Origin: Sphingomonas arenae
GTDB lineage: Bacteria > Pseudomonadota > Alphaproteobacteria > Sphingomonadales > Sphingomonadaceae
Assembly (NCBI RefSeq): GCF_016924655.1
Contig: NZ_JAFFJU010000001.1
Location: forward strand, 434,001 to 498,000
Direction: 5' to 3'
DNA: 64,000 bases
The notes beneath the pieces are model-generated. The model was given only the letters and a program-made list of their open reading frames with translations, searched no databases and was not told the origin of the DNA. The position numbers and the translations under genes are program-made. Every line of letters starts with the position of its first letter. Position 1 is the first letter of the stretch. This document shows, one piece after another, positions 4,199 through 8,928 of this stretch.

Positions 4199-4897
4199 TT
4201 AGTCGCGATCCCTGGACAGGTCGTCCACTTCGCCCATGATCTGGGCGAGGGCGGATGTGTTCGGGTCCGTCTTGTGCTGCCGCCGTGACGGGAGCTTGCC
4301 GCCGGTGAGCAGCTGCTCGAGCGCCACCCGGCCGCGGGCGACCCGGCTCTTGATGGTGCCGACGGCGCAACCGCAGATTTCGGCCGCTTCCTCATAAGCG
4401 AAGCCGCCTGCGCCCACTAGAATGAGGGCTTCACGCTGAGGCTGCGGCAGGTGCATGAGCGCGCGCTGCATGTCGCCCAGTTCGACGTGACGATCCTGAC
4501 TGGCCGGCGCGGCGAGGATCTTGGATGCCGTGAGTTCGTCCCATTCCCCCTTGAAGCGCGCGCGGCGCATCTGGCTGAGGAACAGGTTGCGAAGGATGAT
4601 GAAGGTCCAGGCACGCATGTTGGTGCCGGCCTGGAAACGCTTGCGCGCGGCCCAAGCCTTGAGCAGCGTTTCCTGGACCAGGTCGTCGGCGAGATCGCGG
4701 CTGCCCGAAAGGGAGCGGCCGAACGCACGGAGGTGCGGAATGACCTGGGCGAGCTGATCCTTGAACTCCGGGTCCGACAGCGGCACCGGGTCGCTGCGCA
4801 CGGGCTCCACGGCCTCGGTGTCGCTGTCCTCGATCACGCTTCCCCACCCTTGCTTGCGGGCGCCTGCAGGCGCGGCGCCACTTGCGATTGCTTGCAT
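4199..4897 (-). CDS. ecfG: General stress response ECF sigma factor EcfG
   Basis: This extracytoplasmic-function sigma factor directs RNA polymerase to general stress promoters in alphaproteobacteria; it is held inactive by the anti-sigma factor NepR. Region 2 is seen around residues 50-115 (LADDLVQETLLKAW, then NMRAWTFIILRNLFLSQ) and region 4 around 140-195 (LPQPQREALILVG, then GTIKSRVARGR, the helix-turn-helix). A 40-residue acidic leader precedes region 2. I take the ATG at 4897 as start (232 residues); a TTG two codons upstream is possible, and neither has a clear ribosome site. A small membrane-protein gene lies 15 bases upstream and a near-perfect EcfG promoter precedes that, so EcfG probably activates its own operon. 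nepR is not adjacent but divergent across phyR. Confidence 0.93.
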   Translation of the reverse strand: MQAIASGAAPAGARKQGWGSVIEDSDTEAVEPVRSDPVPLSDPEFKDQLAQVIPHLRAFGRSLSGSRDLADDLVQETLLKAWAARKRFQAGTNMRAWTFIILRNLFLSQMRRARFKGEWDELTASKILAAPASQDRHVELGDMQRALMHLPQPQREALILVGAGGFAYEEAAEICGCAVGTIKSRVARGRVALEQLLTGGKLPSRRQHKTDPNTSALAQIMGEVDDLSRDRD

Positions 4898-4912
4898 CTG
4901 CAAATGCCGGGC

Positions 4913-5053
4913 TCAGCCGGCGACGATCAAGATAATGGCAAAGATCAGGATGACCAAACCGAGGCCTCCGAGCAGTGCCACGCGCGCCATATGCGGCGTC
5001 GTGCCGGCACGCGCCTCCGTACCGGTCAGATGTTCAGGCCGATTGTCGTCCAT
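4913..5053 (-). CDS. Small single-pass membrane protein in the ecfG operon
   Basis: A 46-residue frame beginning MDDNRPEHLTGTEARAG with one strongly hydrophobic C-terminal helix (ALLGGLGLVILIFAIILIVA, about residues 26-45). The N-terminal half is polar and charged, so it is predicted to be a tail-anchored or single-pass inner-membrane peptide. It lies between phyR and ecfG, 35 bases downstream of a GGAAC-N17-CGTT promoter and 15 bases before ecfG, so it should be co-expressed with the sigma factor under stress. I recognise no named family. Its placement suggests a role linked to the stress response, but that is inference only. Confidence 0.7.
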   Translation of the reverse strand: MDDNRPEHLTGTEARAGTTPHMARVALLGGLGLVILIFAIILIVAG

Positions 5054-5087
5054 TGAGTTGGCATCCCCGAATTCATTTTGGTTAGCC

Positions 5088-5113
5088 AACGCAACGAGTG
5101 GAACCGAAGTTCC
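5088..5113 (-). promoter_or_regulatory. Sigma-EcfG promoter for the small membrane gene and ecfG
   Basis: On the minus strand the sequence reads GGAAC, 17 bases, CGTT, an exact match to the known alphaproteobacterial EcfG consensus (GGAAC-N16/17-CGTT). It fits between the phyR stop codon and the start of the 46-residue membrane protein, with the -10 element 35 bases from that start. Confidence 0.85.
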
Positions 5114-5117
5114 CCGC

Positions 5118-5921
5118 TTAACCCGCCGGTACGGTTGCCGCGTCGAAGAATAGTGCCTGCGCGATCGCGGCCTTTACGGTCGCACGCTGGAACGGCTTCG
5201 TGATGAGGAACGTCGGCTCCGGCCGGGTTCCGGTCAGGAGGCGCTCCGGGAAGGCGGTGATGAAGATCACCGGAACCGAGAACTCCGCGAGGATGTCCCG
5301 AACAGCGTCGATCCCGCTTGAATCATCGGCGAGCTGGATATCCGCGAGCACGAGGCCCGGCGGGTGGGCGCGAGCCTGGGCAACCGCCTCGTCACGGGTA
5401 ACGGCAACGCCCGTGACATTGTGCCCGAGATCGCGAACGATTGTCTCGATGTCCATGGCGATGATCGGCTCGTCCTCGATGATGAGGACATCCGCCAGGG
5501 TCTGGCGCTCGATCTCTTCCAGCGCCTCGGAGACGAGGTTGTCCACGTCCTGCGGGTTGGCGCCGATCAGGTAGCCGGCGTCCGACGACGAGAAACCTTC
5601 CAACGCCGTCAGGAGCAACGCCTGCCGCGAAAGCGGGGTGATCCGAGACAGGCGGGCCTGCGCAATTCCTTCCGCGCTGCCGAAGCTGCCGCCGGAAGGC
5701 TCTTCGCCCTCTTCGATGTTGGCGGTCGACCAGATGGCATGAAAGGTCTTGTACAGTCCCAGCCGCGGCTCAACATCCCGCGGGAAACTTTCCGGAGAGG
5801 CGACGATCGCCTCCAGCGTAGCGCGGACGAACGCGTCGCCATGGGTCTGGCTACCGGTCAAGGCGCGTGCATAGCGGCGCAAGAATGGTAGGTGCGGCGC
5901 GAGTTCCTGGCCAAGCGACAT
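5118..5921 (-). CDS. phyR: General stress response regulator PhyR (sigma-like anti-anti-sigma factor)
   Basis: PhyR switches on the general stress response: when phosphorylated, its sigma-like domain binds NepR and releases EcfG. The N-terminal 140 residues form a degenerate sigma-factor-like domain (regions 2 and 4, without DNA-binding function). The C-terminal part (about 143-255) is a receiver domain with acidic pocket Glu149/Asp150, phospho-acceptor Asp194 in LVLADIQL, Thr222 and Lys242 in FLITKPF. The stretch FITAFPERLLTG matches the motif special to this class of receiver. Length (267) is normal. It is divergent from nepR and upstream of the small membrane gene and ecfG on the same strand. 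Confidence 0.97.
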   Translation of the reverse strand: MSLGQELAPHLPFLRRYARALTGSQTHGDAFVRATLEAIVASPESFPRDVEPRLGLYKTFHAIWSTANIEEGEEPSGGSFGSAEGIAQARLSRITPLSRQALLLTALEGFSSSDAGYLIGANPQDVDNLVSEALEEIERQTLADVLIIEDEPIIAMDIETIVRDLGHNVTGVAVTRDEAVAQARAHPPGLVLADIQLADDSSGIDAVRDILAEFSVPVIFITAFPERLLTGTRPEPTFLITKPFQRATVKAAIAQALFFDAATVPAG

Positions 5922-6040
5922 ACGTGCGTTGCTCCCTAAATCGTTGGGCCCCTATTGGTGACCGATGCCCGATTGCGCAAGCCTGCTGGGCGGTCACAAA
6001 CTCCCTGGCCGGGGAGTTCGGGACTTCTTTTCCGAAGCAT

Positions 6041-6066
6041 GGAACAAAGGTTGTCCGATTTGGTTT
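6041..6066 (+). promoter_or_regulatory. Sigma-EcfG promoter upstream of nepR
   Basis: GGAAC at 6041-6045 is followed 16 bases later by GGTT (17 bases to GTT), close to the EcfG consensus GGAAC-N16/17-CGTT. It points at nepR, about 155 bases upstream of its start, within the 299-base divergent region between phyR and nepR. I saw no comparable element directed at phyR and nothing else clear in this region. Confidence 0.65.
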
Positions 6067-6220
6067 CCGGGGCGGGCAGCTTCAACTCGCGAAATACGTA
6101 CGCGCGGTGCGTTGACGAGTCGGCTGAACCACTTTTAGGGGGGAGCTTCGTTGCGCGACGTCAACAAGCATTTCACCATCATTCGCTACGCACCGTCGCT
6201 AGCGTGAGGGGGACGAGAGG

Positions 6221-6415
6221 TTGAGTGGTACCGACAAGGCCGAATCGCGACGTGCCGACGAATCTCCGGAGTCGTCCGCAAAGTCGGCGAAGGCACGAAA
6301 GAAGCGGGGTGCGGCGCCGGCCGACCTCGGTCGTGCCCTGCGGTCGGTCTATGACGAGACGCTGCGCGAAGACGTGCCGGACGATTTCCTCGACCTCCTC
6401 GGCAAGCTTGAATAG
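6221..6415 (+). CDS. nepR: Anti-sigma factor NepR
   Basis: NepR binds EcfG and blocks its access to RNA polymerase; under stress it is captured by phosphorylated PhyR. The 64-residue protein has a polar Lys/Ser/Ala-rich N-terminus and the conserved C-terminal block LGRALRSVYDETLREDVPDDF followed by LDLLGKLE, the family's two helices. The start is a TTG at 6221 preceded by the purine-rich GAGGGGGACGAGAGG; no in-frame ATG exists before the conserved block. It is followed 27 bases later by the phyP-like kinase, suggesting co-transcription from the EcfG-type promoter upstream. Confidence 0.92.
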   Translation: MSGTDKAESRRADESPESSAKSAKARKKRGAAPADLGRALRSVYDETLREDVPDDFLDLLGKLE

Positions 6416-6442
6416 CTCACCCCTAGCGTCCGGAATGCTGGA

Positions 6443-7984
6443 ATGATTGGAAAGGTCAGGCGCTGGTTTCAGCGGCTGCCGACAGCGGGCAAGCTGCTGG
6501 TCATCCTCTCGGCTGCCGTTCTCCCTCTCGGGCTGGTTCTCGTGCTGGCGGCGACGGCGGGCATCGGTCAGGCCAACTCGGCTTTGCGCGCCAATGCCGA
6601 AGCACAAGGACGTTCGGCAGCAAGGGCAGTCGAGTCCCTGATCGCTCGCAATGCCTTGGCTCTTCGAGTGGCCGCAAGCGGGGCACTCAGGGAACCGGAA
6701 AATCATTGCGAATACGTACGGCGCTCCCTTCGGCCCACCAGCGGAGTTGCAGAGAATTTCGCGCTCACGGACGCGCGAGGGCTGGCACTCTGCGCTTCGG
6801 GGAGTGATCGCTGGGAGAGGCTGAAGGAGCGCGTCACCCCTGGCGACATCCGTCTATGGATCTCGCAGGGCGGCAGTGGGCTCTATTATCGCGTGGGGCT
6901 TGCCGACGGTCATGCCACAGGACTGCTCAGCAGCCAGCAGTTGCGCGACGCGGCCCTGAGTTCGCAGGCCGACGTCGCTCGCATCGTCGTGACCGACGGC
7001 ACGCGCACCATCAGGCTGGTCGACAATCCACAAAGCGGGCCGTTCCAGCCGGATCTTCTCACCACGACCCGACGCGTCGGCCGAGGCCAGATCGACATCA
7101 CGACCGCAGTGCCGATCAGCCGCATCGAGTCGATGGACCGGGTCATCATTCTGCTACCGGTCCTGATGTGGGTGGCCGCAGCGCTGCTCAGCTGGTGGCT
7201 GGTCAACAGCTTTCTTATTCGGCCGCTCCGACGCATCCAGAAGGCAGTCAGCAGCTACCAGCCAGGGGGAGAGCCGTTCCACCTGCCCGAGCGGCTCGGC
7301 TCCGCCAACGAGATCCAGGAACTCGGCCAGGCTTTCACCCGCGCGGTGGAGCGGATCGAAAAGTCCGAGCACGACATGGCGGAGGCGCTCGAAGGGCAGC
7401 GGAAGCTGGTCCGTGAGGTACACCACCGGGTGAAGAACAACCTGCAGGTCGTCGCCTCCCTGCTGAACATTCATGGCCGCAGCGCCGGATCACAGGATGC
7501 CCGCGACGCCTACGCGTCGATCGGCCGCCGAGTCGATGCGCTGGCGGTGGTCCATCGCAACCATTATGCGGAGCTCGAAGAAAATCGCGGCATCGCACTT
7601 CGGCCGCTGCTGAGTGAACTCGCGGCTTCCCTGCGTGGAAGCGCGCCTGACAATGCGCGGGGGCTGGCGATCGACCTCGACCTGGAGAGCTTGAACACCA
7701 CGCAGGACGTCGCGGTCGCCATCGCATTCCTCACTACGGAAATCGTCGAGTTCGCGATGCTGACCCAACCGGAGCAGACAGTGCAATTGTCCCTGCGGCG
7801 GCGGAACGACCTGTCTGCCCGCTTCGAACTTCAGAGCCCCGCACTGGTGGACCACGACAACGACGAACCCGATCGCAAGCAGTTCGAGCGCATCGTCGCA
7901 GGCCTGGCGAAGCAGCTTCGCTCGACGCTCGACCGGGAGCCTGGGAAGTACGGAGTGGATCTCCCCATTTTCCCGCCGCGTTAA
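6443..7984 (+). CDS. PhyP-like membrane sensor histidine kinase with degenerate ATPase domain
   Basis: A 513-residue protein with a membrane helix near 18-42, a periplasmic or extracytoplasmic domain to about 232, a second helix near 233-258, a HAMP-like linker, and a HisKA_2 dimerisation domain with the H-box REVHHRVKNNLQVVASLLN around residues 324-342 (His327/His328). In sphingomonads the kinase encoded next to phyR, PhyP, controls PhyR phosphorylation, so that is the likely role. The C-terminal part does not show the usual ATP-binding residues: the N-box position reads FLTTEIVEFAML without the asparagine, and no DxGxG box follows. This favours a phosphatase or a phosphotransfer role rather than autonomous kinase activity. 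Assignment as PhyP rests on position and architecture. Confidence 0.8.
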   Translation: MIGKVRRWFQRLPTAGKLLVILSAAVLPLGLVLVLAATAGIGQANSALRANAEAQGRSAARAVESLIARNALALRVAASGALREPENHCEYVRRSLRPTSGVAENFALTDARGLALCASGSDRWERLKERVTPGDIRLWISQGGSGLYYRVGLADGHATGLLSSQQLRDAALSSQADVARIVVTDGTRTIRLVDNPQSGPFQPDLLTTTRRVGRGQIDITTAVPISRIESMDRVIILLPVLMWVAAALLSWWLVNSFLIRPLRRIQKAVSSYQPGGEPFHLPERLGSANEIQELGQAFTRAVERIEKSEHDMAEALEGQRKLVREVHHRVKNNLQVVASLLNIHGRSAGSQDARDAYASIGRRVDALAVVHRNHYAELEENRGIALRPLLSELAASLRGSAPDNARGLAIDLDLESLNTTQDVAVAIAFLTTEIVEFAMLTQPEQTVQLSLRRRNDLSARFELQSPALVDHDNDEPDRKQFERIVAGLAKQLRSTLDREPGKYGVDLPIFPPR

Positions 7985-8010
7985 GCGATCAAAATAATTT
8001 TACGACGGTT

Positions 8011-8035
8011 GGAACCCTCGCGAGGACGGGTCGTT
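8011..8035 (+). promoter_or_regulatory. Sigma-EcfG promoter without a downstream protein gene
   Basis: GGAAC at 8011-8015, 16 bases, CGTT at 8032-8035: a perfect match to the EcfG consensus. It lies 26 bases after the phyP-like gene and points toward the 3' end of the converging tatC gene. The expected transcription start is near 8042. Only the hairpin region described in the next entry follows. Confidence 0.8.
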
Positions 8036-8041
8036 CTTGTA

Positions 8042-8137
8042 TTCGGATAGTGACCTTTTGCCCCCCCGCTCTCGCTATCCGCTTACATGGGCCCGGAACC
8101 GCCAACCCTCCCCCCCCCCGGTGGCGCTTCCGGGCCC
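8042..8137 (+). ncRNA. Candidate stress-induced small RNA with C-rich loops (GsrN-like)
   Basis: Directly downstream of the perfect EcfG promoter the plus strand can fold into two hairpins. The first pairs CGGATAGTGA (8044-8053) with 8072-8081 around an 18-base loop containing seven consecutive C. The second pairs GGGCCCGGAA (8089-8098) with 8128-8137, continues with CGCCA/TGGCG after one mismatch, and carries a loop of CT followed by ten C. C-rich exposed loops are the target-binding parts of GsrN, the EcfG-controlled sRNA of Caulobacter, and of other alphaproteobacterial sRNAs that pair with G-rich ribosome sites. No T-tract follows, so the 3' end is uncertain. The RNA would be antisense to the last 55 bases of tatC. 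Confidence 0.55.
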
Positions 8138-8928
8138 AAACTTGTCTGGGGCCCCTCAACATCGGCGGAAGTGGAAGCTGCGGCACGGCGTGCTGCGCGC
8201 CAGTGGGTCAGCCGGATGGCAATGATCGAGCTTTCGTAGAGCAGCCATAGGGGTATCGCGAGCATCAGCTGCGACACCGCATCCGGCGGGGTGAGCACGG
8301 CCGAGATCGCGAACGCCGCAACGATGGCGTAGCGCCGCTTGGCTGCGAGTTGCTGGCGGGTCACCAGACCGGCCCGCTCGAGCACCATCAACAGGATGGG
8401 AAGCAGGAACGCGACACCGAACCCGAAGAGGAATCGCGTTACGAACGACAGGTAATTGCCGACTCCCGGTAGAGCTTCCTGCTGGACCCCGCCGCCGACA
8501 TCGCCCTGGAAGCTGAGCAGGAAGTGAAGCGCCCAAGGCATTGCGACGTAGTAAGCGAAGGCCGCACCGCCGGCGAAGAAGACGGGGGTCAGGAGCAGGA
8601 AAGGCAGCAGCGCCTTCTTCTCCTTGGCGTAGAGGCCCGGCGCAACGAACCGCCACGCCTGGGTCGCAAAGATCGGGAAGCAGACCATCAACGCGGAAAA
8701 AAGGGCAACCTTCACCCGCACCCAGAAGGCTTCGAACACATCGGTGTAGATAAGCTTCCCTTCGCCAGCCGCCTTGAGTGGCTGCACCAGGACGCTGAAG
8801 ATAGGTGGTGCGAAATAGTAGCAGGCGAAGAAGGCCACCACGAGCGCGGCCAGGCTCCAGAGAATTCGCCGCCGCAGCTCGATAAGATGATCCATCAGCG
8901 GCTGCTTGCTGTCGTCAATGTCCTTCAC
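8083..8928 (-). CDS. tatC: Twin-arginine translocase subunit TatC
   Basis: TatC is the membrane receptor that recognises twin-arginine signal peptides and builds the Tat export channel with TatA and TatB. The 281-residue protein begins with the conserved cytoplasmic MDHLIELRRRI and shows six membrane helices, with the family's FVAPGLYAKEKK and the periplasmic Pro/Glu-containing loop. The ATG overlaps the tatB stop by four bases. The last ~25 residues (Gly/Pro-rich) are encoded by a hairpin with a run of ten C on the plus strand; this tail looks unlike a normal TatC end and overlaps the candidate sRNA, so the true 3' end may differ if the homopolymer is miscounted. Confidence 0.93.
   Translation of the reverse strand: MKDIDDSKQPLMDHLIELRRRILWSLAALVVAFFACYYFAPPIFSVLVQPLKAAGEGKLIYTDVFEAFWVRVKVALFSALMVCFPIFATQAWRFVAPGLYAKEKKALLPFLLLTPVFFAGGAAFAYYVAMPWALHFLLSFQGDVGGGVQQEALPGVGNYLSFVTRFLFGFGVAFLLPILLMVLERAGLVTRQQLAAKRRYAIVAAFAISAVLTPPDAVSQLMLAIPLWLLYESSIIAIRLTHWRAARRAAASTSADVEGPQTSLGPEAPPGGGRVGGSGPM

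Follow-up and report, generated by a model that had tools for sequence, protein, structure and literature searches.

The segment spanning positions 8011 to 8137 of the window (the whole stretch of 64,000 nucleotides that was analysed) is best read as the gene for a sigma-EcfG-dependent, trans-acting small RNA (sRNA) whose C-rich loops would pair with G-rich ribosome-binding sites, a reading to which we assign a probability of about 0.86. Comparisons of sequence indicate that the element very probably constitutes a real family of sigma-EcfG sRNAs, which is conserved across much of the Sphingomonas family. A preliminary description of this DNA had proposed an sRNA of the GsrN type under sigma-EcfG control, and this proposal is supported by the agreement of the promoter, the position in the locus and the C-rich loops. 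In sphingomonads the proteins of the general stress response have been studied in depth, and the family would gain a candidate EcfG-controlled sRNA with a model, a predicted promoter and loops that can be tested.

The predicted RNA would be about 95–105 nt long and comprise a 5' hairpin that exposes a C-rich loop and a 3' hairpin of the terminator type, whose loop is again rich in C (CCCUCCCCCC-like). Under general stress EcfG would transcribe this RNA. Both loops resemble an anti-Shine-Dalgarno sequence and may pair with G-rich ribosome-binding sites and alter translation, with the pairing and the sign of its effect both being predicted.

Promoter, fold and genomic setting

The perfect EcfG promoter, GGAAC-N16-CGTT, which the preliminary description had placed just after the phyP-like gene, is present as claimed (Table 1), and no clear protein gene follows it on the plus strand before tatC, the list of open reading frames offering only short mechanical frames in this interval. 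The two stable hairpins with loops of seven and ten C residues were likewise recovered at the same coordinates: the fold of 8042–8137 has a z-score of -6.3, and none of 200 dinucleotide shuffles was as stable. In the window sequence a gap of 9 nt separates the CGTT box from the hairpins, and the T run 3' of hairpin 2 is weak (AAACTTGTCT). Taken as a pattern alone the EcfG promoter is not significant, with 3 matches in the 64-kb window against 1.93 expected; its significance derives instead from its conservation among relatives. A second exact match to an EcfG-type promoter was observed on the minus strand at 5088–5113, between phyR and ecfG and pointing to ecfG.

Table 1. Features of the stress-response locus in the window
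Feature	Position	Strand	Basis
ecfG-type sigma factor	4199..4903	-	PF04542, PF08281; name ecfG from its place beside phyR and nepR
phyR	5118..5921	-	PF22029, PF22233, PF00072
EcfG-like promoter GGAAC-N16-GGTT upstream of nepR-phyP	6041..6065	+	motif count in nepR leaders
G5 tract spaced like a ribosome-binding site ahead of the nepR start codon (TTG 6221); proposed loop-pairing site	6208..6212	+	inferred target
nepR, anti-sigma factor of EcfG	6221..6415	+	PF18557, 44.7 bits
HisKA_2 / HWE histidine kinase, phyP-like gene	6443..7984	+	PF07568, PF07536
EcfG promoter, GGAAC (8011-8015) - N16 - CGTT (8032-8035)	8011..8035	+	sequence; conserved among relatives
Predicted sRNA; start estimated from the distance to the promoter, 3' end where hairpin 2 closes or a few nt later	8042..8137	+	covariance models R1, R2; folding z -6.3
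Hairpin 1 (5'), arms 8044-8053 / 8072-8081, loop C7 at 8061-8067	8044..8081	+	fold, covariation
tatC; last codons cross hairpin 2 on the opposite strand	8083..8928	-	PF00902
Hairpin 2 (3', terminator-like), loop C10 at 8110-8119 in CCCTCCCCCCCCCC	8089..8137	+	fold, covariation

The placement of the element at the phyR-ecfG-nepR locus agrees with the neighbours recognized through Pfam matches, namely an ECF sigma factor, PhyR, NepR and a kinase. The RNA is immediately preceded by the kinase gene, in the same orientation, in all 36 loci read from the genus of the window and in 56 of the 69 other loci (92/105 altogether), and phyR is found upstream within the locus in those 56. An entericidin gene occurs at most 600 bases downstream of the RNA in 63/69 non-genus loci and in 0/36 genus loci, and a tatC gene no more than 1.5 kb away points towards the RNA in 35/36 genus loci and 58/69 others. 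The usual order is thus ecfG-phyR-nepR-kinase-[RNA]-entericidin-tatCBA; in the genus of the window the RNA abuts tatC, and in the eight loci of g41 (Sphingobium-type) it precedes the entericidin gene, with no kinase gene in reach (8/8). By eye, several of the non-genus entericidin genes (L067–L114 and similar loci) appear to have an EcfG-like promoter of their own, GGAACG...CATT.

The RNA had also been described as antisense to the 3' end of tatC. For the window itself this overlap is correct, but it is a feature specific to the genus, given the entericidin gene directly downstream in most other loci. A simple motif search, which failed in several further genus loci, placed the tatC stop at the same point between the hairpins in 13/36. 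On the minus strand of the window (8083–8119) the tatC frame passes through the C10 loop; thus, in species with this overlap the number of C residues is constrained by a reading frame as well.

Conservation across the Sphingomonas family

A blastn search with positions 7985–8160 was run against 37 genomes of the same genus (own genome included) and 24 genomes of other families. The element was matched in 35/37 genus genomes, the two without a match being 77% and 79% complete, and in 0/24 genomes of other families. The 36 genus loci that were read include two from a single genome (G003), in which two differing copies of the element (L018, L036) sit on separate contigs, reflecting either duplication or contamination. 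All 36 share GGAAC-N16/17-CGTT followed by exactly 9 nt to GGATAG. Within the genus, mean column identity in the core alignment is 89%, with the promoter spacer and the flanks having diverged, and 6 of 25 base pairs are changed on both sides. Loss of the promoter and the hairpins in close relatives had been named beforehand as a result that would speak against the RNA; both are conserved in the 36 genus loci and in the order-wide models presented below.

A covariance model built from the genus sequences (R1) was searched against 396 genomes of the order at an E-value of 0.01 and matched 100 of them, in 17/84 genera; minus-strand echo matches of the same loci were disregarded in this search. 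A further model (R2), run over the same 396 genomes at an E-value of 0.001, matched 121 genomes in 23/84 genera, several of which rest on weak, doubtful matches. In an alignment of 74 sequences (A4), 22/25 pairs vary on both sides and 94.8% of the cells are paired, a level reached by none of 500 shuffles and set against 29–44% of cells when the partners are slid; because the sequences had been fitted to the model when they were aligned, these covariation counts lean towards it. When R2 was run over 385 genomes spread across the class under stricter filters, only two matched, both from the Sphingomonas family. Among the matches listed, exact matches to the core come from named records of at least many Sphingomonas species and several Sphingobium, along with Sphingosinicella, Stakelama, Hephaestia, Parasphingopyxis, Rhizorhapis and Sphingomicrobium.

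Since the promoter is part of neither R1 nor R2, it provides an independent check on these matches. It is exact in 88/105 loci, carries one mismatch in 16 and two in 1 (104/105 within one mismatch), and the 9-base gap between promoter and RNA is kept in 101/105; by comparison, random windows drawn from these loci match in 11 of 21000 cases. Even in the weaker R2 matches, the stem sequences of which are quite different, a promoter within one mismatch is found at 8–9 bases in 17/20. Three R1 matches (L138, L139, L140) and three R2 matches (L458–L460), which have no convincing promoter in the expected position, are probably false; the matches read in g28, g42 and g53 have no good promoter, and that in G345 is likewise weak.

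The C run of loop 1 reaches at least six residues in 104/105 loci and is usually C6–C8, and a T run of at least four within 20 bases after hairpin 2 is present in 50/105 loci (fewer than four in 55/105). We noted a common plan across the diverged matches, in which a 5' hairpin bearing a C-rich loop precedes a terminator-like hairpin whose loop is of the CCUCCCC type. Such a constant plan with diverging stems is the pattern expected if the loops are the working part of the RNA.

Candidate targets

The nepR leader in the window has a TTG start behind a G5 tract (6181–6223). We examined the 40-base leaders of eight locus genes side by side, taking as the nepR start the one nearest to the NepR start of the window and retaining same-species duplicates among the loci; a G run of five or more was found before nepR in 42/96 loci, against 21/993 for the seven other locus genes together. 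Under a second rule, in which the start was chosen by anti-Shine-Dalgarno pairing (a choice biased towards G-rich leaders in either group) and only identical leaders were removed, the last 25 nt contain G5 or longer in 89/119 nepR leaders from RNA-bearing loci and G4 or longer in 115/119, and 116/119 have a TTG or GTG start. Among genomes without an R2 match, NepR was found in 15 of the 30 searched, yielding 13 distinct leaders, of which 2 have G5 or longer (both with starts judged doubtful) and 9 have an ATG start. The loosest rule, with duplicates included, gave a G run before nepR in 104/138 RNA-bearing cases and in 3/14 without an RNA match. Nearly all of the genomes without an RNA match come from genera that have no convincing match, making descent a confounder: genera that carry the RNA and genera that lack it belong to separate lineages, so that the co-occurrence of the nepR G run and the RNA may reflect descent.

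The motif GGAAC-N15..18 with a CGTT box behind it (at most one mismatch in this box) lies upstream of nepR in 116/119 leaders against 377/2380 random places, the second box being GGTT in six of the seven examples printed. When the leaders were read by genus, with a single NepR match taken from each genome (two or three occur in several genomes of g27), those of the RNA-bearing genera g27 (13 leaders) and g31 (2) showed no G run of four or more, those of g41 had G4 only (n=9), and six from other genera comprised two with G5, two with G4 and two with less. Predicted pairing with nepR leaders differs between the loops: loop 1 reaches -17.3 kcal/mol, hardly better than the -16.3 kcal/mol of shuffled leaders, whereas loop 2 reaches -21.3 against -16.9 kcal/mol and is clearly better. 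In Caulobacter, the nepR mRNA co-purified with GsrN and has a predicted site, GGGGGGCG, in Table 1 of PMC5869019; the available text of that paper reports no feedback on sigT.

On these sequence features nepR is put forward, tentatively and with considerable doubt, as the most likely local target of the RNA. Its ribosome site is unusual in combining a G run with a TTG or GTG start; blocking this site would leave less anti-sigma factor and reinforce EcfG. Under a broader proposal, which we regard as unlikely, the RNA might be a feedback arm of the stress switch, with EcfG making both the nepR message and the RNA, and the loops covering the ribosome site of nepR so as to lock the response on; lineages lacking the nepR G run would then use the RNA on other targets. 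Our confidence is high for the RNA and low for nepR as its target because of the leaders of g27 and g31 without a G run, the weak pairing of loop 1 and the confounding by descent. The nepR site makes feedback within the switch a simple reporter question.

The preliminary description had pointed to the katG site of GsrN, but no site of this type was seen here. The katG gene is present in 28/31 genus genomes, and in the 26 readable leaders of the 27 fetched the longest G run within 150 nt before the start is 2–5, a count that leaves room for a shorter or different site; katG was dropped as a target for lack of a G run longer than five. Tracts of G7 before start codons gave 59 overlapping matches in the own genome, with candidates labelled, by reading their translations, as fabI, a pilus secretin, imuB, a LuxR-type regulator and a methyltransferase. 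The G7-before-ATG candidates were set aside, as they were not met again among 12 places from relatives (14 relatives, among the matches listed). A reversed-pattern control for these counts was left unused because GTA was judged to be a rare triplet.

Alternative readings and known small RNAs

Other explanations of the element have to account for the same conserved features. Hairpin 2 is GC-rich, lies between convergent genes in the window and is followed in nearly half of the loci by a T run, as would suit a bidirectional terminator between phyP and tatC with a fortuitous promoter and no regulatory RNA. We consider this very unlikely, since hairpin 1, the loop sequence and the EcfG promoter at its fixed distance are conserved too, the loops beyond what a terminator needs, and since the entericidin gene directly downstream on the same strand in the 63 non-genus loci means that the neighbours are not convergent there. 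That same gene bears on the idea of a cis-acting antisense RNA controlling tatC, which draws on the full complementarity to the 3' end of tatC in the window and on the stop position shared by some of the genus loci: where entericidin follows the RNA, tatC is not overlapped, yet loops, stems and promoter are kept. Control of tatC cannot therefore be the shared function, the g41 loci being of the same kind, and as an account of the element it appears highly improbable. Equally improbable is a non-pairing role, whether as a sponge for a protein or as a short coding gene. A protein might conceivably bind long C tracts, and short frames do exist, but we know of no protein reader of C tracts in these bacteria, and the base pairs covary. 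Because the numbers of C residues vary, which would shift any frame, a reading frame is not what is conserved, and a coding frame for the region was rejected on this ground. A trans-acting sRNA with pairing loops remains our preferred interpretation.

A separate matter, which concerns origin and is compatible with the sRNA reading, is whether the element is the sphingomonad orthologue of GsrN by descent, with stems diverged past recognition. It is established that the C-rich loop of GsrN pairs with G-rich messages (PMC5869019). According to the available text of the same paper, GsrN of Caulobacter crescentus, with its homologues in the Caulobacteraceae, resembles the present element in its EcfG/sigT promoter, here a predicted one with conserved sequence and spacing, in its place near ecfG, nepR and phyR (window 4199–8137), in its length of about 100 nt, in its exposed 5' C tract and in its 3' intrinsic terminator hairpin (with a weak T run here). 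The GsrN target sites in Table 1 of that paper would imply a loop like GCCCCCCGAC, close to GCCCCCCCGCUC in the window. GsrN is moreover stabilized by Hfq and matured into a stable 5' isoform, and an Hfq is encoded in the own genome. The two differ in the second long C tract within the terminator loop here and in the katG leaders, which are without a G tract. Against orthology stand also the confinement of R2 matches to the Sphingomonas family among the 385 genomes of the class under strict filters, and the absence of an observed katG site, in a comparison that drew on the description of GsrN only. Orthology is accordingly possible, though on balance we think it somewhat improbable. In the main text of PMC5869019 the word stem Sphingomon does not occur, and Erythrobacter litoralis, used there as an outgroup, is given as having no apparent gsrN-like gene.

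The GsrN-like RNAs of Rhizobiales, which were predicted from position, promoter and in part from transcript data, share with the present element an EcfG site, a position at the general stress response (GSR) locus and an exposed C-rich loop, to judge by the available text of PMC5869019. This suggests that an EcfG-driven RNA with C-rich loops may be a recurring part of the alphaproteobacterial stress switch.

No Rfam family reached its gathering score in the window. The alpha-r14 (ar14) RNAs (NfeR1; RF02344) are similar in having C-rich anti-Shine-Dalgarno loops on stems free to diverge, but, as described in the available text of PMC10746234, they consist of three hairpins with CCUCCUCCC, in contrast to the two hairpins here. 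Membership in ar14 was rejected: in the own genome RF02344 did not match the element, its highest score of 16.9 bits falling elsewhere, and the element of one relative (L122) scored 26.2 bits (E 0.58) against a gathering score of 58.8. The SuhB sRNA of Sphingopyxis granuli TFA is likewise a trans-acting sRNA of a sphingomonad; it differs in its length of 61 nt, its expression at high growth rate, its Hfq-dependent repression of thnR and, as far as the available text of PMC6563040 goes, the lack of an EcfG link.

The earlier statement that no description of this RNA was known is in line with a search of the literature on sphingomonad and EcfG-controlled sRNAs by title and the start of the abstract, which returned none and covered few subscription journals. 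In the available text of the papers on the GSR of S. melonis Fr1 and Sphingopyxis TFA, sRNA terms likewise led to no EcfG-controlled sRNA. The own genome itself seems to encode a double-domain Hfq: outside the window, at G000:C4:30617-31042, we observed two adjacent Hfq domains, each in a 196-aa frame.
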